Source: Roseovarius halotolerans (GTDB taxonomy: Bacteria > Pseudomonadota > Alphaproteobacteria > Rhodobacterales > Rhodobacteraceae). From it: a stretch of 64,000 bases of DNA. This document shows, one piece after another, positions 23,775 to 34,825 of the stretch. How positions within the stretch are numbered: the first letter of the stretch is position 1; each line of letters starts with the position of its first letter. The DNA lies in NCBI RefSeq assembly GCF_900172255.1, contig NZ_FWFU01000004.1:62001-126000 (forward strand). The letters run 5' to 3'. The notes under the pieces were generated by a model. The model saw only the letters and a list, made by a program, of their open reading frames with translations. It ran no database searches and was not told the origin of the DNA. The translations under genes were made by a program, and so were the position numbers.

Positions 23775-25517
23775 TCACTCGTCGTTCTTGCGAATATCAG
23801 GCCAGACGCGCGGGAAGGTGACATGCAGCTCGAACCGCGTCGGCAGATCGTCGATGTCCAGCGTGCCGTTCAATTGCGACACGAAGGACTCGATCAGCCG
23901 CGAGCCAAGCCCCGACCCGTCAGGATCGCCCTCTGCATCCTCTTCCCCGGCGGGGGCGCGCGAATTCACCACGCTCAGGCACAGCTCGTCATTCTCGACC
24001 TTTTTCAGGGCGATGTTGATCCAGGCATCGTCGCCCTTGACGACGCCGCTGTATTTCACGGCATTCATCGCCGCCTCCGCCGCCAGAAGCGACAGCGGGA
24101 CCGATTGATCCGGGTCGACTTCGACGGGGTCGAACTCGGTCGATACGTTGATCTGCTGTCCGGTCTCGTCCAGCGTGCCGACGATCACCAGCTGCTGGAT
24201 GATCTCGTCCAACAGCTTGTCGGCGCGCACCATCGACAGCTTGCGCGCCAGGTACAGGTAGCGGTGGATCGCCGACAGCGCCATCACCCGGTCCTGAACG
24301 CGGCGCAGAAGATGCTTGGCCTCGCCACTGCGCGCGGCGCGGATCTGCATGTTCATGATACTGGAAATCAGCTGAAGATTGTTCTTCACGCGGTGATGGA
24401 CCTCGCGCAACAGAACCGTCTTTTCCTGCAGATCCTCTTCGCGGCGGCGATCCTGTTCATCCAGCCGCCGGGTCATCGCGCGAAACGCTTCGGCCACGAC
24501 TTCCAGTTCCTCGGGCGCATTGTTCAGCCGTGCATGTTCAAGGTCCGCGCGCCCCGCCGCATAAAGACGCATCCACGAGCGCAGCCGCCTGATATGGCGG
24601 ATCACCAGACGATGCACACCCACATAGGCCACGCCGATGGCGGTCACCCACATGATGATCGGGAAATACAGCGCGAACGCCTCTTCATAGCCCGGCAGGA
24701 TCAGGCTGCGGCTGCGAGGCGCCCAGCTGCCCAGCGCGAAAACGCTGCCATCGACAATCGCCACCACGGCGAAATCGCGGGTCATGCCTGCGCGGTTTAC
24801 CTCGCGAAACGTGTGGCGTGGCCGCTCGGCCAGCTCTTCGAGCGTCGTTCGTTGCGGCAGCACCGCGCGCCGGTCATCGGTGAAATCCTCTGTGGCGATG
24901 ATCTCGCCATGCGATTGAAACAGCACCAGATCGACATCCGGCGCGCGCCCGGTCAGTGACCTGTTGAGCGCGGTGATCGGAACGGCGATCAGAACCTTGC
25001 CCATGAACTGCGCCTCGTCGAAGACCGGCACCATCACGTTGACCGAGGCCGGCCCGCCGAGAAAGGACAGCGGCTGCATCTGGATTTCGGTGTCGGGGCT
25101 GGTCAGCTGCGTGCGGATAATATCGAGACCGCTCAGGTCGCGCTCCTCGCCGCGCGAGGTGCAGACCAGTTGCAGCTCGTCATCGACGAACCCGGCGAAC
25201 ATGTAATTGGGGGATTGCTCTACAATGCGCCGCATGACCTTGTCGCACGGCCCGTCGATCCCGCGAAAGGCCGATACCGTCAGCGCCAGCGCCTCGGCCG
25301 CACTGACGGCCGATCCGATCACCTCACGGCTGGCCGACGCGGCCTGCTGCGTCTGCTCCAGAAGCGCGGTTTCCGACAGCGAGCGGCGCTCTTCCAGAAC
25401 CTTGAGCGTCTGGTAGACCGATATCAGGCCAAGCGGCAGGATCGCGATGCTCAGCACCAGCGCCAGGAGCACGGCAAGACCCGGCTTGAACTTCCGGCGC
25501 GGTGGCGGCTCGCTCAT
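23775..25517 (-). CDS. HisKA_2 sensor histidine kinase of the general stress response
   Basis: 580-aa membrane kinase. A first helix (about 14-36) and a second (about 285-307) enclose an extracytoplasmic Cache-like sensor. A HAMP-like linker follows, then a HisKA_2 dimerisation domain with [14 protein letters not shown] near residue 388 (phospho-His in the HHRVKNN motif) and a C-terminal ATPase domain ending before the acidic [15 protein letters not shown] segment. Its ATG overlaps the ecfG stop (ATGA), so it is translated with nepR-ecfG. By position and type it is the best candidate for the PhyR phosphodonor (PhyK-like). Confidence 0.9.
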
Positions 25518-26068
25518 GCAGCCGGATTTCCCTGTACCACCGCCAGTGTCGCTGCATCGGTCATGTCGAGCCCCTCATCCTCGTCCAGATGCATGAGTTC
25601 CGCCAGCCGCTTGCGGGCGCGATTGGTGCGGCTCTTGACCGTCCCCACCGCACAACCGCACATCTCGGCGGCATCCTCATAGGAAAATCCTTCGGCCCCC
25701 ACCAGGATCAGCACTTCGCGTTGCTCGTCGCTCAACTGCGCAAAGGCCTCGCGGAAATCGGTCATCACCAGATGCCCGTCATGGGCCGGCTTCTCGGACA
25801 TCGCGCCCGCCATCTGGCCCTCGGGGTCCTCGACCTCGCGGCGGCGCTTGCGGTAGAGCGAGTAATAGGTGTTGCGCAGGATCGTGAACAGCCAGGCGCG
25901 CAGGTTTGTGCCCGGCTTGAAGCGGTCGAAATTGCTCCAGGCCTTGACGATCGTGTCCTGCACCAGGTCATCCGCCGTCGCCGGATTGCGCGTCAGGCTC
26001 ATTGCGAAGGCGCGCATCGCGGGCAGATGCTCGATCAGTTCTTCTCTGGGGTCGGGTGTATTGGTCAA
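25514..26068 (-). CDS. ecfG: EcfG-family sigma factor (general stress response)
   Basis: 184-aa ECF sigma factor. Region 2 (about 12-80, with [19 protein letters not shown] and the [11 protein letters not shown] segment) and region 4 (about 110-165, with [23 protein letters not shown] and the recognition helix ending [13 protein letters not shown]) are clear. It recognises GGAAC/CGTT promoters, several of which occur around it. It overlaps nepR upstream by 4 bp and the kinase gene downstream by 4 bp. Confidence 0.95.
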
Positions 26069-26277
26069 TGCTTGTCATCCCCGGACGCCGCCCGGTGATC
26101 TTTGCCATCATCTTCACTCTGATCCTCGGCACAAGCGCCCGTCTCCTGCTGGCGAAGTTGCTCCAGCAGCTTGGTGAACCGCTCGGGAACCGGTTCGCTG
26201 GACGCGTCCGAGTAGACGCGTCTGAGATTGTCGTCTATCTGCTGGTTCAACTTTGAGGTCCTGCTGTTTTCTGCCAT
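26065..26277 (-). CDS. nepR: Anti-sigma factor NepR
   Basis: 70-aa protein with the two-helix NepR core (about residues 12-45: IDDNLRRVYSDA and PERFTKLLEQLR) and an acidic, disordered C-terminal tail. It holds EcfG inactive until phosphorylated PhyR binds it. It is first in the nepR-ecfG-kinase operon, divergent from phyR. Confidence 0.93.
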   Translation of the reverse strand: MAENSRTSKLNQQIDDNLRRVYSDASSEPVPERFTKLLEQLRQQETGACAEDQSEDDGKDHRAASGDDKH

Positions 26278-26333
26278 GTTACTATGTTCTAACGTCCATT
26301 ACGCGGCCTGACGCATTTTTACGCCCTAACCGT

Positions 26334-26358
26334 GGAACCTAACACGCTTGGCGGCGTT
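26334..26358 (+). promoter_or_regulatory. EcfG promoter of phyR
   Basis: GGAAC (26334-26338), 16-bp spacer, CGTT (26355-26358), 36 bp before the phyR ATG. An exact match to the consensus means phyR is autoregulated by the sigma factor it releases. Confidence 0.85.
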
Positions 26359-26365
26359 TGGTTCC
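26341..26365 (-). promoter_or_regulatory. Probable EcfG promoter of nepR-ecfG (one mismatch)
   Basis: Minus strand GGAAC (26365-26361), 16-bp spacer, TGTT (26344-26341), one base off CGTT. It overlaps the phyR promoter head to head, so the two predicted transcripts would overlap at their 5' ends by about 30 nt. nepR-ecfG autoregulation by EcfG is common in related bacteria. Confidence 0.55.
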
Positions 26366-26394
26366 CTGCAAACAAAAATTTTTTCGAGGAAACC

Positions 26395-27213
26395 ATGACC
26401 GAAACAACCAGTCAGCGCGACATGTCTGCAGAGATCGCCCAGGACCTGCCCTTTCTGCGGCGCTATGCCCGCGCCCTGACCGGCAGCCAGCAAAGCGGCG
26501 ACCACTACGCCGCCGCCACGCTCGAGGCCCTGCTTGAGGATCAGGAGATCTTTCATTCCGGCCTGTCACCCAAGGTGGCGCTGTTCAAGGCATTCAACCG
26601 GATCTGGGTATCTTCGGGATCGCCCGTGGATGACGCGGGCGAAGACGGCTCGCCCGAGGCGCGCGCGCAGATGCGCCTCTCGGGCCTGACCCGCAACACC
26701 CGCGAGGCGCTGCTGCTGCACAGCATTGAAGGCTTCACCACCGCCGATATCGCCAAGATCGTCGATGTCGAACCCGCCGAGGCCGAAGAACTGATCGCCA
26801 TCGCCCGCAAGGAAATGGCGCAATCCATCCGCGGGCGCATCATGCTGATCGAGGACGAGGCGATCATCGCGATGGATATCCGCGCCATCGTCGAAGGCAG
26901 CGGCCATTCCGTCACCGGCGTCGCCCGCACCCGCGACGAGGCGGTGCAGCTCGCGCGTCACGACCCGCCCGACATGATCCTGGCCGATATCCAGCTGGCC
27001 GATAAATCCTCGGGCATCGACGCGGTGAATCATATTCTCGAGGAAATGGGCGAAATGCCGGTGGTGTTCATCACCGCCTTCCCAGAACGCCTCCTGACCG
27101 GCGAACGCCCCGAACCCGCCTTTCTCATCACCAAGCCCTATTCCGAGGAGCAGGTGCAATCGGCGGTCAGTCAGGCGATGTTCTTCACCAGCACCGAGAC
27201 GCTTCAGGCCTGA
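26395..27213 (+). CDS. phyR: General stress response regulator PhyR
   Basis: 272-aa anti-anti-sigma response regulator. The N-terminal half is a sigma-like domain (about 10-140) that mimics EcfG to capture NepR. The C-terminal half is a receiver (about 143-265), beginning IMLIEDEAIIAMDI, with phospho-acceptor Asp in LADIQLADKSSG and the conserved Lys in ITKPYSEEQ. GAGGA precedes the ATG at 26395. It is divergent from nepR, with its own EcfG promoter. Confidence 0.95.
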   Translation: MTETTSQRDMSAEIAQDLPFLRRYARALTGSQQSGDHYAAATLEALLEDQEIFHSGLSPKVALFKAFNRIWVSSGSPVDDAGEDGSPEARAQMRLSGLTRNTREALLLHSIEGFTTADIAKIVDVEPAEAEELIAIARKEMAQSIRGRIMLIEDEAIIAMDIRAIVEGSGHSVTGVARTRDEAVQLARHDPPDMILADIQLADKSSGIDAVNHILEEMGEMPVVFITAFPERLLTGERPEPAFLITKPYSEEQVQSAVSQAMFFTSTETLQA

Positions 27214-27234
27214 AAAAGCCCGGCGCGGAACAAA

Positions 27235-27275
27235 CGAAAAAGCCCTGCACGCGGTCGCGTGCAGGGCTCTTGATT
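27235..27275. terminator. Bidirectional terminator after phyR
   Basis: Perfect 12-bp stem (27241-27252 with 27257-27268), GGTC loop, with A-rich sequence to the left and CTTGATTT to the right. It can stop both phyR and the convergent DUF1328 transcript. Confidence 0.8.
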
Positions 27276-27299
27276 TCTGTGTCATCGCTCGCGCGCCCT

Positions 27300-27470
27300 T
27301 CAGGGCGCACGGCCCCGCACCGCACGCGCAACCAGCGCGACGACGAACAGGACCAGGAAGATCACGAACAGGATTTGTGCGATCCCGGCCGAAGCCGAAG
27401 CGATCCCGCCAAATCCGAAAACGCCCGCGACCAGCGCGACGATGAAAAACAGCAGTGCCCAGTAAAGCAT
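27300..27470 (-). CDS. DUF1328 small membrane protein (YtjA-like)
   Basis: 56-aa protein of two hydrophobic helices separated by a Gly-rich turn ([13 protein letters not shown]), the DUF1328 pattern. GAAAAGGAG lies upstream of the ATG. Function is unknown; the family is often stress-induced. An exact EcfG promoter lies 43 bp upstream. Confidence 0.9.
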
Positions 27471-27512
27471 CGGTATTCTCCTTTTCAGGCAATCATGTTG
27501 CTCTGGACCTGA

Positions 27513-27538
27513 AACGACCGACACTGCCGCATGGTTCC
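27513..27538 (-). promoter_or_regulatory. EcfG promoter of the DUF1328 gene
   Basis: Minus strand GGAAC (27538-27534), 17-bp spacer, CGTT (27516-27513). It faces left, back to back with the DUF883 promoter on the plus strand. Confidence 0.82.
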
Positions 27539-27586
27539 GAAAAATCCGTTCTTTCCTCCGCTTCCGGCATTTGCGCAACGCCGCAT

Positions 27587-27611
27587 GGAACACAATGGCC
27601 CGACGCGCGTT
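27587..27611 (+). promoter_or_regulatory. EcfG promoter of the DUF883-DUF1469 operon
   Basis: GGAAC (27587-27591), 16-bp spacer, CGTT (27608-27611), 34 bp before the ATG, with AGAAAGGA as ribosome site in between. Confidence 0.84.
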
Positions 27612-27645
27612 AAACCCCGAACGCAAATCAAGAAAGGATATCGCA

Positions 27646-27969
27646 ATGGCACAAGCGAAGAACACCTCATCGGACGCGGATATCGAGCAACTCTCCGAGC
27701 AGATCGCAACGCTGCGCTCTGACATCTCGACCATTTCGCAAACCCTCTATGACCTTGGCCGCCAGTCCGGGGATTCGGCTGTGAACGGCGCACGCCGCAA
27801 AGCCGCCGACCTGCGCGATGCGGGCCAGCAGCATCTGCACTCCGCCCAGCACCAGGCCGAGGAAATGGGCCATCAGGCAGCCGACGCCGTGCGCGCGCAA
27901 CCCGCCGCCGCGATGGGCCTTGCTGTGGGCATGGGCTTTCTTCTGGGTTTCATCACCGGACGGAAGTAA
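27646..27969 (+). CDS. DUF883/YqjD-ElaB family membrane-anchored protein
   Basis: 107-aa protein. A long amphipathic helical part (about 10-80) is followed by a C-terminal membrane anchor with [17 protein letters not shown], the hallmark of the YqjD/ElaB family. E. coli members bind ribosomes at the membrane in stationary phase. AAAGGA precedes the ATG at 27646. It is followed 3 bp later by the DUF1469 gene, forming a yqjD-yqjE-type pair. Confidence 0.88.
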
Positions 27970-27972
27970 CCC

Positions 27973-28332
27973 ATGACGGGTCTTTTGAACGGTATCGAAG
28001 CACGGGCGCGCCAGGCGGCGCGCTCGGCTGCGTTTGCGACGATCGGCGTGATCTTCGCGATGATCGGGCTCGGTTTCCTGACGGCCGGGCTGTGGATTCT
28101 GATCGCCGCCTATGAGGGCGCGCTCATCGCTTTCGTGGCGATCGGGGCGCTCTACCTGATCCTCGGCCTCTGCTTTCTGGCGCTGGGGCGCCAGCCCGGC
28201 GGAACGCCCCCCGCTGCGGATCGTCCGGCTGCCGCGGAACCGCCTGCGCAAAAAGATATTTTCGTGCAGATCGCCGAAGGTTTCGCCACCGGCATGCAGG
28301 CCGGCCGCGCCGCGCGCGATCCGCGCACATGA
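27973..28332 (+). CDS. Phage holin superfamily III / DUF1469 membrane protein (YqjE-like)
   Basis: 119-aa protein with two membrane helices (about 22-45 and 48-72), a Pro/Ala-rich linker and a short C-terminal helix. It matches the YqjE/DUF1469 group, which is not an actual phage holin. It is co-transcribed with the DUF883 gene from an EcfG promoter, so probably an envelope stress pair. Confidence 0.83.
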   Translation: MTGLLNGIEARARQAARSAAFATIGVIFAMIGLGFLTAGLWILIAAYEGALIAFVAIGALYLILGLCFLALGRQPGGTPPAADRPAAAEPPAQKDIFVQIAEGFATGMQAGRAARDPRT

Positions 28333-28337
28333 AAAAG

Positions 28338-28371
28338 CGGGCGCGGCGGCCAGCCCCGCCCGCCGCCGCGC
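28338..28371 (-). terminator. Probable terminator for the receiver-like gene
   Basis: GC-rich stem (28341-28349 with 28363-28371) directly after the stop of the minus-strand gene. On the minus strand it is followed by CCGC then five T residues. Confidence 0.5.
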
Positions 28372-28758
28372 TCAATGCGAATCGGCATCCCGCCGCGGGG
28401 TCAGCGCCTCGCGGATCATCTGTTCGGTGAAGGGACGCACCAGCATCCCCCAACCTTGCTGGAGCACGACGCTCTCGTCATCCTCGCCGATCGTCAGGAT
28501 GATCCGGGCACCGCTATCGGCAAGACTCTGATGCAGATCGGACTGCACCAGCTCGCGATAGGGCATTTCAAGGAACGCCGCCGTCACCGCCGGTTCCGTG
28601 TGCAGGCTCGGGACAAGCATCTCCGGACGTTCGACACGGATTACCCGGCACGGGCCGGTCGCCCTGAGCGATCCGATGATGTCCTCGGCGATCAGGGCGT
28701 TGCTTTCCAGAACGATATAAACCGGCAGCGCCGGCTGAAGTGTATCACTATAAGGCAT
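28372..28758 (-). CDS. Degenerate receiver-domain protein (pseudo-receiver)
   Basis: 128-aa stand-alone receiver-like protein. The first strand and helix VYIVLESNALIAEDIIGSL resemble a receiver, and so does the end LVRPFTEQMIREAL. The acceptor strand reads AAFLEM, with Glu64 where Asp is expected; Arg108 replaces the conserved Lys, and the acidic pair near residue 18 is reduced to Glu-Ser. It therefore should not accept phosphate and may be locked in one state. I chose the ATG at 28758, but a longer start at 28836 cannot be excluded. It lies between stress genes and a Crp-type regulator, and its target is unknown. Confidence 0.72.
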   Translation of the reverse strand: MPYSDTLQPALPVYIVLESNALIAEDIIGSLRATGPCRVIRVERPEMLVPSLHTEPAVTAAFLEMPYRELVQSDLHQSLADSGARIILTIGEDDESVVLQQGWGMLVRPFTEQMIREALTPRRDADSH

Positions 28759-28799
28759 GTATGGATTCGGTCTTTTGGTCAACAAGTCCCGGCCAACAT

Positions 28800-28824
28800 G
28801 GAACCTGTGGCACGAACACGCATT
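28800..28824 (+). promoter_or_regulatory. Possible EcfG promoter of the Crp-family gene (one mismatch)
   Basis: GGAAC (28800-28804), 16-bp spacer, CATT (28821-28824) instead of CGTT, 29 bp before the ATG. Position is good but the -10 mismatch lowers confidence. Confidence 0.4.
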
Positions 28825-28853
28825 AAGATATGACATAGCAGAGGGAAATTTTC

Positions 28854-29585
28854 ATGACCACCGATTGCCTGAATTGCCCGCTGCGCCAACGCCCGGTCTT
28901 TGAACCCATGAAGGGCAACGAACTTGATTTCATGCGGAAATTCAAGACGGGCGAGCTGGAGATCAACGCCGGAACCACCCTCATGCTGGAAGGCACCAAC
29001 AGCCCCCAGCTCTACACCGCGCTCAAGGGCATGGGGCTGCGCTACAAGACGCTCAAATCGGGCGAGCGGCAGGTGATCAACTTCGTCCTGCCCGGCGATT
29101 TCATCGGCCTTCAGGCCGGGGTGATGCAGGAAATGCAGCATTCCGTCGAAGCAACCACCGACATGAAACTCTGCGTGTTCGACCGCAAGAACCTCTGGCG
29201 GCTGTTTCGCGACTGCCCCGAACGCGCCTATGACCTCACCTGGCTCGCAGCCGTCGAAGAGCACCTACTGGGCGAGAACCTCGCCATCCTCGGTCATATG
29301 AACGGGCTCCGCCGGATCGCCTCGGCATTCGTTCGCCTGCATGACAGGGGCGCGGCGCTGGGGCTGGCGCATAATGGGCGCATGCCCCTGCCCTACAAGC
29401 AACAGGATCTGGCCGATGCGCTCGGCCTGTCGCTGGTGCATACCAACAAGACCCTGCGCCACCTGCGCAAGGGCGGCGCAGTGCGCTGGATGAACGGACA
29501 GCTCGAAGTGCTGGATTACGACCTGCTCTGCGGGATTGCCGGGCTCGATCCCGGGCGTCGTGCGATACTCAGACCCCTGATCTGA
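28854..29585 (+). CDS. Crp/Fnr-family transcriptional regulator
   Basis: 243-aa protein with an N-terminal CLNCPLR (Cys5, Cys8), a cyclic-nucleotide-binding-like beta-roll (about 25-145) and a C-terminal winged helix (about 165-235, recognition region LGLSLVHTNKTLRHL). Unlike true FNR it lacks the full four-Cys set at the N-terminus, so an FNR-type iron-sulfur cluster is uncertain. AGAGGG precedes the ATG. Its ligand and targets are unknown. Confidence 0.88.
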   Translation: MTTDCLNCPLRQRPVFEPMKGNELDFMRKFKTGELEINAGTTLMLEGTNSPQLYTALKGMGLRYKTLKSGERQVINFVLPGDFIGLQAGVMQEMQHSVEATTDMKLCVFDRKNLWRLFRDCPERAYDLTWLAAVEEHLLGENLAILGHMNGLRRIASAFVRLHDRGAALGLAHNGRMPLPYKQQDLADALGLSLVHTNKTLRHLRKGGAVRWMNGQLEVLDYDLLCGIAGLDPGRRAILRPLI

Positions 29586-29625
29586 CCGTTGGCGTGAACC
29601 GGTGCACATAAGACGCGCACGGGCG

Positions 29626-29651
29626 GGAACCTTGTGCGCCCGCCACGCGTT
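29626..29651 (+). promoter_or_regulatory. EcfG promoter of the AI-2E family gene (leaderless arrangement)
   Basis: GGAAC (29626-29630), 17-bp spacer, CGTT (29648-29651). The ATG begins 8 nt after the -10, the same distance as in the exoD-like gene, so the mRNA would have little or no 5' leader. Confidence 0.82.
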
Positions 29652-29659
29652 GGTGATCC

Positions 29660-30724
29660 ATGTATAACCCTGCTTCGCCCCGCGACCCGGTCCTTCGCGC
29701 CGCGGCCTTTTTCGTGATCGTCACTCTCGGCTTCGCCATTCTCAGGACCGGCGGCGACATTCTTGCGCCGATGGTGCTGGGGTTGGTGACCGGCGTGATC
29801 CTCGCGCCCGTGACCGATTTCCTTGAACGCATCGGCCTGCCGCGCGGGCTTTCGGCGGCGGCGGTTTTGGTGCTGGGGGTGATGGCGATCGCATCGCTGG
29901 TCTTTCTGGCCGAACCGCTGATCTGGCGCATCGCCGAGGAACTCCCGCGCATCAAGTTTGAGCTTCGCTCGCTGGTCAACGAATTCCGCGGCCTGGTCCA
30001 GGGCCTCGCCGAAATGAACCGCGAAGTCGAAGAGGCGCTCGGCGCAAGCTCGCAGGATGGAGAGGCGGACGATGCCCCGGCCATGCCCGGCTTTACGCAG
30101 GCGCTGTTCCTCGCCCCCCTGATTCTCACCCAGATCCTGATCTTCGGCGGCGTGCTGTTCTTCTTCCTGCTGACGCGCAAGGGGATCTACAGCTGGCTCG
30201 CGCGCTTCATCGGCGACCGGGCGGATACCGAAATCCTCCTGCAACGCTTCACCCAGGCCGAACGGCTGGTGTCGCGCTATTTCCTCACCATCACGGTGAT
30301 CAACGCAGCGCTCGGCACCGCGCTCGCCGGGGCTCTGGCGCTGATCGGGCTGCCGGGGCCGTTCATCTGGGGCCTGACGGCGGCGCTCGCGAATTTCATC
30401 CTCTACATGGGGCCGATGATGGTGACGGGCGGCCTCCTGATCGCGGGACTGGTGGCCTTCGACGGGCTCATGACATTCCTGCCGGCCGTGATCTTCCTCA
30501 GCCTCAACATGATCGAGGCACAATTCGCGACGCCCGCCTTTCTGGGCCGGCATATCTCGGTCAATCCCTTGCTCATCTTCGTGTCACTGGTGGTCTGGCT
30601 CTGGTTGTGGGGGCCGATCGGCGGGATCATCGCCATCCCGGTATTGGTGATCGCGCTGGTGATGCTCAACATCTTCGAACCGGCCTCGGACGACGACCAG
30701 GACAGCGACCGCACCGCGCGTTAA
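29660..30724 (+). CDS. AI-2E family (PerM-like) transporter
   Basis: 354-aa polytopic membrane protein with about eight helices: a pair near the N-terminus (15-35, 38-60), one near 65-85, then a cluster from 150 to the C-terminus. A soluble helical insertion (about 90-145) is typical of the AI-2E exporter/UPF0118 family. No Shine-Dalgarno is visible and the EcfG -10 ends 8 nt before the ATG. The substrate is unknown. Its TAA stop shares bases with the stop of the convergent PLD gene. Confidence 0.88.
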   Translation: MYNPASPRDPVLRAAAFFVIVTLGFAILRTGGDILAPMVLGLVTGVILAPVTDFLERIGLPRGLSAAAVLVLGVMAIASLVFLAEPLIWRIAEELPRIKFELRSLVNEFRGLVQGLAEMNREVEEALGASSQDGEADDAPAMPGFTQALFLAPLILTQILIFGGVLFFFLLTRKGIYSWLARFIGDRADTEILLQRFTQAERLVSRYFLTITVINAALGTALAGALALIGLPGPFIWGLTAALANFILYMGPMMVTGGLLIAGLVAFDGLMTFLPAVIFLSLNMIEAQFATPAFLGRHISVNPLLIFVSLVVWLWLWGPIGGIIAIPVLVIALVMLNIFEPASDDDQDSDRTAR

Positions 30725-32313
30725 ACCATCTCCTCTGGAATGCCCGGCACCGGGGCGGCGATCTCTCGCGCCGCACCGGATTCGTAGCTCACGAGGAAGC
30801 CGCGCCTGACATGCGGCGGCGAGGCACTGTTGAACTCGACCAGTTGCCGCCAGTTGTCAAAGGCTGTCTCGGGGTCAAGATACTCCGCCCCGGCATCCTC
30901 TGGCAGCCAATGGCCCATCACCCTGCGGCGCAGCTCGCCGATCTGCTCGGGTCGCGTCAGGTGCAGCCCCGCCTCGCTGTCCCAGCGCAGGCTGCGCCCG
31001 TTGAGATTGGCCGAGGACACGATCGCCTCGCTGTCATCGAAGATCGACACTTTTGAATGCACATAGATCAGCGGCGCGTGCTTGAGCGTATCGCGCTCCT
31101 CGCTCTCGCGGCTGCGGCTCTGCACCGGCGAGGCGATCAACAGGCGATCCGGCCCGAACGCCGCCTTCAGGCGGTCGATACAGCGCAATTGCAGGTGCTC
31201 CCCGAACCGCGCATCCAGCCCTCGGCTGCTCGCAAAGGCCACGTCATCGGGCGCGGCGGGCAGCACCACGATCAGCCGCAGATCCGGACAGCGGCGCGCC
31301 CGCCGCGCCAGCGCGCGGGCCAGCGGCAGATGCCTCAGGAACTGGGTTTCAAGGTAGATCAACCGACTGGCCCCGCGCACGCCCGTCATGTGCTGGTCCT
31401 CGATCTCGCGCAGGATCGTGCGCGGCGCGACCCGCATCACCGTCCCCGGACAGACCCGCGAGAGAGTGCGCAGGAAACCGTTGGCGGCGGGCTTCGGCGG
31501 AGACGCCACATCGGCGACATTTTCGAGAAACCCGTCCAGATGCGCCTGCGCCGCCGCGGCCACCGGCCCGGTCGCCATGAGCTGGATATCATGCCACGTA
31601 TGGCGCGCCGCGCGGTCATGGCTCTTGGTGTCGAACCGCCGCTCATTCAGGTCGAGCCCGCCGATATAGACCTTGCTGCGATCGAACACCGCCAGCTTCT
31701 GATGATGCGTCGCCGGGGTCAAATCGACCAGCCGCGTGCGAAACGTCAGCTCGCCGTTCTCGTCCACCTCGCAGATACCGCGCAGGCGCGGCGTTTCTTG
31801 CCGGAACCGCTCGCGCTGCGCCAGGGTCATGTCGCGCCATGACTGCGCCAGCGCATTGAGCTTGCGCCGGACCAGCGGATAGAACAGCAGCCTCGGCACC
31901 ATTCCGGTGCGCCCGCTATGCAACGCCACCACGAATGACAGCCGCACATCGGCGCGGCACAACTCGCGCACCGTCGCGATCTGGCGCTGCGTGCGCCACG
32001 CCTTCTGGTGGAGGTCGGGCGCCGCCACCGGATCGAAATCCGACACCACCAGCCGGATCGCCACACCGCGCTCAAGCGTGTGGATGAACAGATCGAACCA
32101 GGTCTCGCCCAGCGCCCGCGCCTCCTTCGAGCGCAGCCGCGTCGACAGGTCGAAAATACGGAAGCTGGCCGAAATCTCCTCGCGCGCCGCCAGAAAGGCC
32201 CGCTCCAGCGCCGGATAGGCCTCTTGCGCGGTCACCAGCACGTCAAGCCCGGCAATCGCCTCGCCGCCGTCCGTTCCGTCGGCTGCATCATCTGGATCGA
32301 GGCCTGCTGTCAT
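30721..32313 (-). CDS. Phospholipase D-like protein with two HKD motifs
   Basis: 530-aa phospholipase D/cardiolipin synthase superfamily member. Two HxKxxxxD motifs are present: HQKLAVFD (about residue 216) and HSKVSIFD (about residue 417), the latter followed by SSANLNGRSL. There are no clear membrane helices, unlike classical Cls, so it may be a soluble or peripheral phosphatidyltransferase or phospholipase. A GGGAGA site lies 11 nt before the ATG. A terminator hairpin lies upstream in the same direction, so expression may depend on its read-through or on an unseen promoter. Confidence 0.86.
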   Translation of the reverse strand: MTAGLDPDDAADGTDGGEAIAGLDVLVTAQEAYPALERAFLAAREEISASFRIFDLSTRLRSKEARALGETWFDLFIHTLERGVAIRLVVSDFDPVAAPDLHQKAWRTQRQIATVRELCRADVRLSFVVALHSGRTGMVPRLLFYPLVRRKLNALAQSWRDMTLAQRERFRQETPRLRGICEVDENGELTFRTRLVDLTPATHHQKLAVFDRSKVYIGGLDLNERRFDTKSHDRAARHTWHDIQLMATGPVAAAAQAHLDGFLENVADVASPPKPAANGFLRTLSRVCPGTVMRVAPRTILREIEDQHMTGVRGASRLIYLETQFLRHLPLARALARRARRCPDLRLIVVLPAAPDDVAFASSRGLDARFGEHLQLRCIDRLKAAFGPDRLLIASPVQSRSRESEERDTLKHAPLIYVHSKVSIFDDSEAIVSSANLNGRSLRWDSEAGLHLTRPEQIGELRRRVMGHWLPEDAGAEYLDPETAFDNWRQLVEFNSASPPHVRRGFLVSYESGAAREIAAPVPGIPEEMV

Positions 32314-32384
32314 GGCTTCGCTGGTCTCCCTGCTGGGGCGTGGCGATCCACCCGCTCTGCAATCGAAATCCGCCGACGCCCCTT

Positions 32385-32416
32385 AAAAAAGCCCCCGCCA
32401 TGTTTCAGACGGGGGC
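32385..32416 (-). terminator. Rho-independent terminator of the candidate sRNA
   Basis: Minus strand 7-bp stem GCCCCCG/CGGGGGC (32416-32410 with 32397-32391), 12-nt loop, followed by six T residues (32390-32385). It is a classic intrinsic terminator. Confidence 0.88.
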
Positions 32417-32515
32417 AGGCACCCGAGGGACAGTTGGGGTGCGATTGGGCCCGCCTGCACTTGGGATGTGGCAGGGCCCGGAAGAGGCAGCGAAAGCATC
32501 GAACGCTGGCTTCAT
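32385..32515 (-). ncRNA. Candidate EcfG-dependent small RNA (about 130 nt)
   Basis: Between an exact EcfG promoter and an intrinsic terminator lies a region of about 130 nt with no gene on this strand. Its RNA folds into four consecutive hairpins: CAGCG/CGCUG (32508-32488), a 6+3 bp stem (32479-32447) with loop CACAUCCCAAGU, GCACCC/GGGUGC (32442-32419) with loop CAACUGUCCCUC, and the terminator. Exposed UCCC/CCUCUUCC stretches could pair with Shine-Dalgarno sequences, as in GsrN-type stress sRNAs (analogy only). A 36-codon ORF (32515-32405) fits inside, but it is Pro-rich, lacks a transcribed ribosome site and ends within the terminator, so a coding role is less likely. Confidence 0.65.
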
Positions 32516-32521
32516 CCTCTC

Positions 32522-32546
32522 AACGCCCGGGCGGGCGACCGGTTCC
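32522..32546 (-). promoter_or_regulatory. EcfG promoter of the candidate sRNA
   Basis: Minus strand GGAAC (32546-32542), 16-bp spacer, CGTT (32525-32522), starting 31 bp beyond the stop of the PLDc_N gene. Predicted start is near 32515. Confidence 0.8.
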
Positions 32547-32576
32547 CTTGCCGCGCGATTTTTTTCTCGCCGCGCC

Positions 32577-32762
32577 TCAGGCCGCTGCCGAGCGCGGCCC
32601 GGCGATCAGCCAGATCAGGAAGCCAAGCAATGGCAGGAGCAGGATCAACAGGACCCAAAGCACCTTCTTTCCTGTCGACGCCGCCGAACCGACCACCGAC
32701 ACGATGGCCCAGATATCCAGGATCAGAATGATGATCCCGCCGATTCCACTGATCTCAAGCAT
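32577..32762 (-). CDS. PLDc_N domain small membrane protein
   Basis: 61-aa protein of two membrane helices (about 5-27 and 35-55). The pattern GKKVLWVLLILLLPLLG and the WLIAGPR end are characteristic of the phospholipase D N-terminal (PLDc_N) domain, here as a free-standing protein. AAGGAG sits 9 nt before the ATG. The separate PLD protein encoded downstream on the same strand lacks this membrane part, so the two may work together (inference). Confidence 0.86.
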   Translation of the reverse strand: MLEISGIGGIIILILDIWAIVSVVGSAASTGKKVLWVLLILLLPLLGFLIWLIAGPRSAAA

Positions 32763-32773
32763 GGTGCTACTCC

Positions 32774-32831
32774 TTCTTGTTTCCGACCATCCGCATCGCT
32801 CGTTCTTGTTTCCGACCATCCGCATCGCTCG
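32774..32831. repeat. 29-bp perfect tandem duplication in the PLDc_N leader
   Basis: Two identical 29-bp units (32774-32802 and 32803-32831), beginning TTCTTGTTTCCGACC. They lie between the EcfG promoter and the ribosome site of the PLDc_N gene, lengthening its 5' leader to about 120 nt. Confidence 0.95.
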
Positions 32832-32890
32832 GCGCGACTGCGGACATGGCCCGCGCCGCCGCACCACAATGCTCGGGCCCGCGCATGAAG

Positions 32891-32915
32891 AACGCTTCCC
32901 GCCTCTCAGAGTTCC
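32891..32915 (-). promoter_or_regulatory. EcfG promoter of the PLDc_N gene
   Basis: Minus strand GGAAC (32915-32911), 16-bp spacer, CGTT (32894-32891). The predicted start near 32883 gives a leader of about 120 nt containing the tandem duplication. Confidence 0.8.
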
Positions 32916-33032
32916 GCAGTAAATTTCACGGTTTTTTCGTGAACCGAAGAAACCTTTCGCCGCTCGCAATGTTGATAGGTCACGACGCCGCGAACCGCGG
33001 TGCCGACAAGACACTTGCACAGGAGACTGAAC

Positions 33033-33653
33033 ATGAAACGCATTCTCGCAACGACGGCAATCGTCGCACTGGCCGCGTCTCCGGTTCTTGCTCAATCGGA
33101 GAGCACCGACAAAGAGACCACCGACCAGACCCAGATCGAGGGCACGGCCGACAGCAACGCAACCGCGACCGAAGAGTCCGCGACCGGCACAGCCGATACC
33201 GGCTCCACCGACATGGACGCAGCCGACAGCGGTACTGCCGATAGCGGCTCCGCCGACATGGGCACGGCCGATACCGGCGCGGCTGACGCGGACACCTCCG
33301 ACAGCGCGATGGACACCACCGAGACCGACATGACAGAAGGCTCGATGGATGCCAGCGAACTGACAGCCGATGACCGTGCCGCCCTTACCGCCGAGGATCT
33401 GGAAGGCCTTGCCGTTCACGGTCCCACGGGCGAAAGCCTGGGCGAAATCGCGGATCTCGTGGTCAGCGACGACGGTGAAATCACCAAGGTCGTGATCGAC
33501 GTCGGCGGCTTCCTCGGCATCGGTGAAAAACCCGTCGCCGTGGAGTTCAGCGAGGTCACCTTCAGCCGTGGAGAGACCGAGGATGCGCTGCATGCCTCGA
33601 CCTCCCTCAGCGAGGAAGAGCTCGAGAACATGGAAGCTTGGGAAGCAAGCTAA
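33033..33653 (+). CDS. Secreted PRC-barrel protein with Asp/Ser/Thr/Ala repeat region
   Basis: 206-aa protein. A signal peptide (about 1-20, ending VLAQS) is followed by a low-complexity acidic stretch (about 22-110) of repeated short units such as ADSGTADSGSAD, then a PRC-barrel domain (about 125-195, with GESLGEIADLVVSDDGEITKVVI). AGGAGA precedes the ATG. PRC-barrel proteins of this type are often stress-induced, though no EcfG element is visible here. Confidence 0.87.
   Translation: MKRILATTAIVALAASPVLAQSESTDKETTDQTQIEGTADSNATATEESATGTADTGSTDMDAADSGTADSGSADMGTADTGAADADTSDSAMDTTETDMTEGSMDASELTADDRAALTAEDLEGLAVHGPTGESLGEIADLVVSDDGEITKVVIDVGGFLGIGEKPVAVEFSEVTFSRGETEDALHASTSLSEEELENMEAWEAS
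33090..33360 (+). repeat. Low-complexity coding repeat in the PRC-barrel gene
   Basis: Degenerate 9-18 bp repeats encoding short Asp/Ser/Thr/Ala units. This is likely an unstructured linker whose length could vary between strains. Confidence 0.6.
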
Positions 33654-33679
33654 CGCCCCGGCGACCCCTCGACAAATCT

Positions 33680-33712
33680 ACGCCCCCGCATTCACCTGCG
33701 GGGGCGTTTTTC
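33680..33712 (+). terminator. Terminator of the PRC-barrel gene
   Basis: Perfect 11-bp stem (33680-33690 with 33697-33707), 6-nt loop, then a T-run. It is 27 bp after the stop codon. Confidence 0.88.
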
Positions 33713-33725
33713 GTTTTGCCGCTTG

Positions 33726-33772
33726 ATCTGGCCGGAAATACCTCGGGGGGTCCGGGGGCTGGCCCCCCGGCC
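33726..33772. repeat. Dispersed intergenic palindromic repeat, copy 1
   Basis: Sequence of about 47 bp with core AAATACCTCGGGGGGTCC followed by a G-run and CTGGCCCCCCGGCC. It is near-identical to 58169-58216. The G-run and C-run can form a strong hairpin. It lies between convergent gene ends, just after a terminator. Confidence 0.85.
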
Positions 33773-33796
33773 CTCGCCCGCGAAACTCCAGGCCGC

Positions 33797-34825
33797 TCAT
33801 TTCCCGAACAGACTGGTCTGCCCCTGCGCATTGGGCGCGGCCATGCCCAGGTGGTGCCACCCCCCCTGCGCCAGCATCCGCCCGCGCGGCGTGCGCTGGA
33901 TCAGCCCCTGTTGCAGCAGGAACGGCTCGATCACCTCTTCCAGCGCATCGCGGCTCTCGCTCAGCGCCGCGCTCAGCGTCTCGATGCCCACCGGCCCGCC
34001 CTGGTAGGCTTCGGCGATCAGGCGCAGGTAACGCCGGTCCGCGCCGTCCAACCCCAGATGATCCACCCCCAGCCGGGTCAGCGCATTGTCGGCCAGGGCG
34101 CGGGTGATGCGCCCGTCGCCCTCGACCACGGCGAAGTCCACCACCCGGCGCAGCAAGCGCCCGGCGATACGCGGCGTGCCGCGCGCCCGGCGCGCGATCT
34201 CGCGCGCGCCCTCGTCCTCGGCGGGGGCCTTCATCAGCGTGGCGTTGCGGGTGACGATCTCGTGCAGCTCGTCCTCGGTATAGAATTGCAGCCGCGTCGG
34301 GATGCCGAACCGGTCGCGCAGGGGCGTGGTCAGCAGGCCCAGCCGCGTCGTCGCCCCGACCAGCGTGAAGGGCTGCAACTCGATGCGCACCGTGCGCGCC
34401 GCCGGCCCCTCGCCGATCACGAGGTCCAGCTCGAAATCCTCCATCGCCGGATACAGCACCTCTTCCACCGCCGGATTCAGCCGGTGAATCTCGTCGATGA
34501 ACAGCACGTCGTTTCGTTCGAGATTGGTCAGGATCGCGGCCAGGTCGCCCGCCTTCGCAAGGACCGGCCCCGATGTCATCCGGAACCCCACCCCCAATTC
34601 GCGCGACATGATCTGAGCCAGCGTCGTCTTGCCCAGACCGGGCGGCCCGTGAAACAGCGTGTGATCCATCGCCTCGCCGCGCTGGCGCGCCGACTGGATG
34701 AAGACGCGCAGATTGGCGCGCGCTTCGGCCTGGCCGATGAACTCGCTCAACGCCTGCGGGCGCAGGCTGCGATCGCCATCCTCGGGCAGCGGGTCGGGGC
34801 GCAGCGTGGGATCCGGGCTTTCCAT
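33797..34825 (-). CDS. ruvB: Holliday junction branch migration ATPase RuvB
   Basis: 342-aa AAA+ motor. Walker [13 protein letters not shown] is near residue 60, Walker [11 protein letters not shown] near 108, and a C-terminal winged helix follows ([13 protein letters not shown]). With RuvA it drives branch migration during recombinational repair. It starts 3 bp after the ruvA stop. The run is ruvC-ruvA-ruvB. Confidence 0.97.

Follow-up and report, generated by a model that had tools for sequence, protein, structure and literature searches.

Between the gene for a small PLDc_N membrane protein and that for a PLD-like protein, inside the general stress response island of Roseovarius halotolerans, lies a short intergenic stretch that raises the question of whether it holds a gene in its own right or only a part of its neighbours. 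Within the window (the whole stretch of DNA analysed, 64 kb in length), the minus strand of 32384..32515 is very probably the gene of a small RNA (sRNA), and the features needed to follow the argument are listed below.

23775..25517, minus strand: HWE-type kinase gene
25514..26068, minus strand: ecfG-type sigma factor of the general stress response (Pfam Sigma70_r2/r4; adjoins nepR and phyR)
26065..26277, minus strand: nepR anti-sigma factor (Pfam PF18557)
26332..27213, plus strand: phyR open reading frame (Pfam PhyR_sigma2 and Response_reg; the true start may be further in)
28372..28836: open reading frame without a Pfam name
29660..30724, plus strand: AI-2E family transporter gene, convergent with the PLD gene (Pfam PF01594)
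30721..32313, minus strand: PLD-like (phospholipase D family) gene, downstream of the sRNA and in the same direction (Pfam PF13091/PF00614)
32384..32515, minus strand: predicted sRNA body, ending in a U tract (start approximate, 6-8 nt after the -10 element)
32385..32416, minus strand: intrinsic terminator hairpin (GC) followed by six U
32419..32442, minus strand: hairpin 3, with the most conserved loop, UGUCCCUC (32425..32432)
32447..32479, minus strand: hairpin 2, with AUCCCAA in its loop (UCCC at 32463..32466)
32481..32513, minus strand: hairpin 1, the stem sequence of which varies among members
32522..32546, minus strand: EcfG-type promoter of the sRNA, GGAAC-N17-GTT (exact motif match)
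32577..32762, minus strand: PLDc_N small membrane protein gene, upstream of the sRNA (Pfam PF13396)

Promoter, fold and coding potential of the locus

The island spans 23775..34825 of the window, in the order kinase, ecfG, nepR, phyR, Crp/Fnr, AI-2E transporter, PLD-like, RNA, PLDc_N and PRC-barrel, the sigma factor at 25514..26068 being named EcfG from its Pfam domains and its position beside nepR and phyR. The exact EcfG promoter that the sequence-only reading had placed 31 bp past the PLDc_N stop was found at 32546..32522 of the minus strand, beginning 31 bp beyond the end of the PLDc_N reading frame (32577). On both strands of the window, GGAAC-N16..18-GTT occurs at 16 sites against 3.2 expected from shuffles, a number reached by none of 100 shuffled windows. 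PLDc_N has an EcfG-type site of its own (32915..32891), and a 29-bp direct repeat (ttcttgtttccgaccatccgcatcgctcg) lies immediately upstream of this gene at 32774..32831. Two further EcfG-type sites overlap on opposite strands at 26334..26365, between nepR and phyR, an arrangement that would suit divergent autoregulation of the two genes.

The transcript read from 32515 to 32384 on the minus strand folds with a predicted energy of -58.6 kcal/mol (z = -3.73; none of 200 shuffles was equally stable), whereas the plus strand of 32385..32560 is ordinary in this respect (z = -0.50). Three hairpins and the terminator are predicted, in agreement with the earlier description of about 130 nt in four consecutive hairpins, the last an intrinsic terminator with six U. 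The same description had pointed to three single-stranded C-rich stretches. Two of these hold, the CCC being unpaired in AUCCC of the AUCCCAA stretch (p about 0.98) and in UGUCCCUC (p about 1.0); the third, CCUCUUCC, is half paired in the minimum free energy (MFE) structure (CUUC/GAAG) and is kept in the nearest relatives L114 and L110 only, being absent from L109.

An internal reading frame is the first competing explanation, according to which the locus encodes a peptide of 36 codons starting at 32515 on the minus strand. The frame is uninterrupted, with its start 6 nt past the GTT of the -10 element, yet the same start yields 19 residues in L114, runs to the end of the RNA without a stop in L110, and is a GTG followed by a different sequence in L109, because indels in hairpin 2 break the frame in these nearest relatives. 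Some of the other members have no reading frame of at least 15 codons, and those of the rest agree neither in start position nor in frame or sequence. This frame had been named beforehand as the feature that could overturn an RNA gene; since its conservation fails, such a peptide is extremely improbable, and a coding role for 32384..32515 is, as judged from the sequences compared, unlikely.

Homologues, sampling and covariation

The search for homologues across the Rhodobacteraceae that had been called for recovered an RNA family that is well supported by sequence comparison, with members accepted in 24 of the 84 genus genomes (counting G320, which is near-identical to G321), in one genome of another genus (G436) and in a Marivita record (L114). 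At Rfam gathering thresholds, the window gave no match and 20 loci with homologues and candidates gave no sRNA, only a tRNA. A blastn search of the genus with 32384-32515, the promoter thus being excluded, returned 11 places besides its own at E < 1e-4 in 9 genomes; near full-length copies are present in G325 (89%) and G319 (79%), and elsewhere the 3' part was matched. In 295 family genomes the same approach found, apart from the locus itself, pieces of 22-33 nt only (14 places in 13 genomes), and the five matches in plasmid records all fall on the PLDc_N gene.

The first 21 aligned members were collected by reading the DNA upstream of PLD homologues and further loci and then filtering by script for the promoter and GUCCC, such that the apparent constancy of both is inflated; L020 passed the GUCCC filter through hairpin 2 and not hairpin 3. 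A promoter-free model, R1, was built from 20 sequences of hairpin 3 plus terminator, and a second, R2, includes the promoter. R1 added G329, G313, G358, G369 and G373 within the genus and G436 outside it. At E <= 0.05, R1 matched 53 of the 84 genus genomes, 24 of which hold the accepted members. Six loci from the other 29 genomes (L137, L143-L147) have no exact EcfG site at the right place and were set aside by eye as ordinary terminators; the matches of 23 genomes and a 36-bit second match in G319 lie outside the loci examined. G345 alone carries 14 R1 matches, several of 35-41 bits; an exact EcfG site is missing at L137, the one locus among them that was examined, and the matches may represent a terminator-like repeat in dispersed copies. 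Among 394 family genomes, R1 gave 10 matches at E <= 0.001, of which the eight other than the own genome and G436 lack an EcfG site at the right place and were rejected; a strong match came from only 1 of 392 other genera. R2 matched 128 of the 394 genomes at E <= 0.05, and nearly all loci opened were unconvincing by eye. The absence from 60 of the 84 genus genomes, many of which have R1 matches outside the examined loci, together with the single occurrence among the 392, indicates that the RNA is dispensable or replaced elsewhere. A decayed copy was observed in G369 (L021, G369:C53), with an EcfG promoter and no good terminator, beside PLD; this genome holds an intact copy elsewhere (L141).

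An exact GGAAC-N16..18-GTT precedes 26 of the 27 aligned members, L107 having GGAAAC, although the promoter filter had been applied to most of them and the unbiased figures are those from the two promoter-free searches. All 11 places found by blastn have an EcfG-type site before them, ten with the exact GGAAC and one with GGAAAC. From the R1 matches that were not part of its training set, 22 were fetched, and in eight an exact EcfG site stands 96-111 nt upstream (six of these loci are new, G321 and G320 being known already) as against a chance expectation of about 0.009 per locus; in the other 14, no site was found in the stretch searched. The promoter that marks the EcfG regulon is present in the window and before homologues of the RNA.

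The architecture is shared more widely than the sequence of the stems. The z-score lies between -2.0 and -8.1 in all 27 aligned members (60 shuffles each), and the distance from promoter to terminator is 152-172 nt, the ends having been placed by hand. Folded on its own, the region 5' of hairpin 3 gives two hairpins, no more and no fewer, in each of the 27, their stems differing greatly, and 19 of the 27 have at least one UCCC there with all three C unpaired in the MFE structure. GUCCC stands in the hairpin 3 loop of 25 of the 27 according to the alignment; L020 and L022 have another loop, and hence a hairpin 3 without UCCC, and the U tract is short in L023 and L025-L028.

Compensatory base changes, set beforehand as a test of the four-hairpin fold, do exist but are few. 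Since MAFFT aligned hairpin 2 poorly over full transcripts and RNAalifold on alignment A1 mixed its pairs, hairpin 2 was compared by sequence instead. A1 and A4 omit L021, with its decayed terminator, and L034, which is near-identical to L033; A2 omits L033 as well. In A2 (19 distinct rows), every cell of the nine terminator pairs is a standard pair, and over hairpin 3 and terminator together 97.1% of cells are standard pairs against at most 52.7% when the strands are slid. Three pairs in A2 show double changes and the covariation score lies above all 500 shuffles; the number of pair types (5) is fewer than the shuffled mean of 5.8, whereas the other measures exceed the shuffles. In A5, which comprises the four nearest sequences, 94.4% of cells pair against at most 52.8% when slid, and there are again three double-change pairs, a count that 47 of 500 shuffles equal; in hairpin 2 of A5 only 82.6% of cells pair. 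Covariation therefore appears to be present, yet modest, where the stems can be aligned.

Relation to the flanking genes

A structured RNA between two genes of one strand might be a 5' leader of the downstream PLD mRNA, whereby EcfG would transcribe into PLD and the terminator would act as an attenuator tuning the read-through. A PLD coding sequence does lie downstream in the same direction in 18 of the 27 members, with 69-266 nt between the terminator and its first aligned residue, and PLD homologues occur close to general stress response genes in the window and, by eye, elsewhere. The RNA is nevertheless not always upstream of PLD: no such gene follows in 9 of the 27, and in G319, G358, G369 and G373 an AI-2E transporter gene (by eye) converges on it instead. 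In G325 (L110, G325:C62) the PLD gene is truncated, lacking residues about 72-307 in query numbering, and the adjoining sRNA is kept at 89% identity. Past the terminator, G321 and G320 have another EcfG-type promoter for the PLD gene, and conservation covers the loop motifs rather than the terminator alone. On these grounds a PLD leader is quite unlikely. PLD loci without the sRNA were also seen in several genomes (L035-L042), where PLD follows a nepR-like reading frame (by eye) and EcfG-type sites are present.

Alternatively, the RNA could be the terminator region of PLDc_N with chance hairpins, or a by-product of transcription, given that it follows directly after PLDc_N, which has its own EcfG-type site, and that stable folds are to be expected from strong terminators. 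Such an origin is very improbable in view of the EcfG-type site before 11 of 11 homologues found without it, the repetition of UCCC beyond shuffles outside hairpin 3 and terminator (see below), and the copies in other contexts, including second copies in G310 and G355 beside Crp/Fnr and a homologue (by eye) of the window reading frame 28372..28836. Conservation, dispersed copies, the EcfG-type promoter before homologues collected without it and the failure of the peptide thus bear out the original proposal of a stress-induced sRNA candidate.

Loop motif, mode of action and wider class

The statistics of UCCC were taken from 18 hand-picked representatives of the 27 members (L114, L110, L108, L030, L025-L028 and L022 being omitted). 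Over the whole RNA, 59 copies of UCCC stand against 29.4 in shuffles, and 52 of them are unpaired. The test was then restricted to the part 5' of hairpin 3, outside R1, to avoid conditioning on the modelled hairpin: UCCC occurs 34 times there against 15.3 +- 3.1, a count that none of 500 shuffles reaches, with 29 of the 34 unpaired and at least one unpaired copy in 17 of the 18 representatives. GUCCC (15 against 4.3; 0 of 500 shuffles) and AUCCC (9 against 3.2; 1 of 500) share the excess, as opposed to CCCC (24 against 23.1), GCCC (8 against 17.5) and ACCC (6 against 9.0); the enrichment is one of U-CCC and not of C-richness. The RNA of the window carries two unpaired copies, in hairpins 2 and 3, and shows in this respect the multi-loop design of more than one unpaired loop UCCC per RNA. 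The term repeated loop UCCC suits the motif better than the anti-Shine-Dalgarno-like stretches of the earlier description.

RNAs that sequester proteins typically repeat one short loop motif over a number of rigid hairpins, and a competing explanation has the RNA act mainly on a protein or as a sponge of other RNAs, with UCCC as the binding motif; no conserved mRNA target was found for the one candidate checked, which would fit this. The best known sequestering RNAs use GGA loops, not CCC. UCCC is described as a proven target-binding motif of several sRNAs (PMC4132741), and action mainly on a protein or as a sponge is, on balance, rather doubtful. Action through the UCCC loops on mRNAs is, by analogy, the somewhat likelier mode.

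Three described systems provide the analogy. GsrN of Caulobacter crescentus is reported as a sigma-T/EcfG-dependent sRNA, the C-rich loop of which pairs with the G-rich katG leader and activates katG (eLife 2018, PMC5869019); its homologues are given there as confined by BLAST to the Caulobacteraceae, with candidates by position and expression in other alphaproteobacteria, and the main text contains no word starting with 'rhodobacter'. Compared through this published description, the RNA resembles GsrN in its general-stress sigma promoter, its exposed C-rich loop and its place, preceded by an EcfG site, in the ecfG-nepR-phyR neighbourhood, where GsrN homologues typically lie as well (the distance to phyR is 5.2 kb in the window and about 0.7 kb in G436, L155); it differs in that GsrN has six tandem C in one 5' loop, whereas no six unpaired C are found here and UCCC stands in hairpins 2 and 3. 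The suggestion of a functional analogue of GsrN, made without any sign of homology in the sequence, is reasonable and is helped by this neighbourhood. LhrC1-5 of Listeria monocytogenes are described as binding lapB mRNA via three redundant UCCC sites, located in loops and a single-stranded stretch, and as induced by cell envelope stress (NAR 2014, PMC4132741); UCCC is assumed by these authors to be characteristic of initiation-blocking sRNAs of low-GC bacteria. Several UCCC per RNA, redundant sites and several copies per genome are shared with LhrC as described, but LhrC belongs to a low-GC Gram-positive and is controlled by LisRK; the likeness is one of working manner and not of a homology family. 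RsaA of Staphylococcus aureus, reported to be sigma-B-dependent and to mask a Shine-Dalgarno sequence by a C-rich motif (PLoS Pathog 2014, PMC3961350), shares the promoter of a general stress sigma factor and an unpaired C-rich motif of the UCCC group; it differs in sigma system and organism, and in a second, loop-loop contact described with mgrA.

No membership of a catalogued family emerged, the best sub-threshold covariance matches in Rfam being RF02837 anti-hemB (18.8 bits against a gathering score of 49.5) and RF02278 Betaproteobacteria toxic sRNA (14.6 bits against 50), both rejected. The C-rich stress sRNAs of alphaproteobacteria also include CcsR/CcaF and the alpha-r14 'CCUCCUCCC' sRNAs, which carry the CCUCCUCCC motif under RpoH control in place of the UCCC loops and EcfG promoter found here. 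Among the matches listed (titles and abstract starts) for EcfG or PhyR-NepR together with small RNA in open-access literature on Rhodobacteraceae or Alphaproteobacteria, no such RNA appeared, and 'EcfG' and 'PhyR' are absent from the main text of the Ruegeria pomeroyi sRNA paper (PMC4809877).

The computations cover promoter match, fold and terminator, conservation, dispersed copies, the repetition of unpaired UCCC and the position at the general stress response locus; transcription by EcfG, action in trans, pairing at ribosome-binding sites and the direction of regulation are what we infer beyond them. The reading that we favour, with somewhat better than even confidence, is a free-standing, trans-acting sRNA of the PhyR-NepR-EcfG general stress response with its UCCC loops as mRNA seeds. 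Stress would release EcfG, which would initiate at GGAAC-N17-GTT, the RNA ending about 130 nt later at the intrinsic terminator. Two or more rigid hairpins would then display loop UCCC, often GUCCC, as redundant seeds that pair with G-rich (GGGA) sequence in or close to ribosome-binding sites, a multi-seed pairing drawn by analogy from the modes of action of LhrC, RsaA and GsrN. Several mRNAs may thereby be altered in their translation or stability, a block of initiation being the simplest means, and the effect could be repressive or, like that of GsrN on katG, activating. What the literature consulted shows of post-transcriptional control in the alphaproteobacterial general stress response comes mainly from Caulobacter GsrN and from candidates picked by position; a second EcfG-type sRNA family, distinct in structure and with a clear loop motif, would offer a testable case for marine Rhodobacteraceae. 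It would also show a loop seed described as characteristic of low-GC bacterial sRNAs at work in GC-rich bacteria, where the stress sigma factor is an unrelated one.

In the window, GGGA precedes the starts of crp/fnr, ecfG, PLD, AI-2E and the kinase; the copy before Crp/Fnr, the one candidate checked for conservation, is absent in the nearest relative. Across the own genome, GRGGGACA-N-ATG occurs at 16 sites against one for the reversed pattern, an excess that is at least partly Shine-Dalgarno bias. The sites include possible starts of a TonB receptor, a NuoK-like subunit, a cobalamin adenosyltransferase and SLT, SPOR, DctM and META proteins; several of these candidate genes have other in-frame starts upstream, and the sites serve as leads only.

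More tentatively, and with somewhat less than even confidence, the EcfG-controlled RNAs of the Rhodobacteraceae may form a class by design (EcfG promoter, rigid UCCC hairpins, terminator) and not by sequence, in which all but the promoter and loop motif turns over fast. If so, the class would be a convergent, high-GC alphaproteobacterial counterpart of the Gram-positive UCCC sRNAs, the sigma-B-dependent RsaA included. A descriptor of EcfG site, terminator and UCCC was run on 40 of 89 other family genomes with phyR, using one region of 4.6-16.8 kb each. From 268 promoter-like sites, 25 have a terminator, three of which have at least two UCCC and one (G039) at least three; ten control motifs, with 27-133 sites each and thus fewer than the test, gave 0 or 1 case with at least two UCCC. 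The sole control case with at least three may coincide with the G039 site, at which the shifted motif has a match too. As there is no excess over the controls apart from G039, the class, if it exists, is not generally found around phyR.

R2, together with inspection by eye, points to designs of this kind in G039, G088, G107, G217 and G065 (L059), the last from a descriptor run that is biased because many of its loci were chosen by the models. Candidates without alignable sequence in other genera comprise L166 (beside PLDc_N and phyR), L168 (with six UCCC), L176 (near phyR), L186 and L059, and the G039 candidate, which scores 46 bits with R2, lies directly after PLDc_N and 1.7 kb from phyR.
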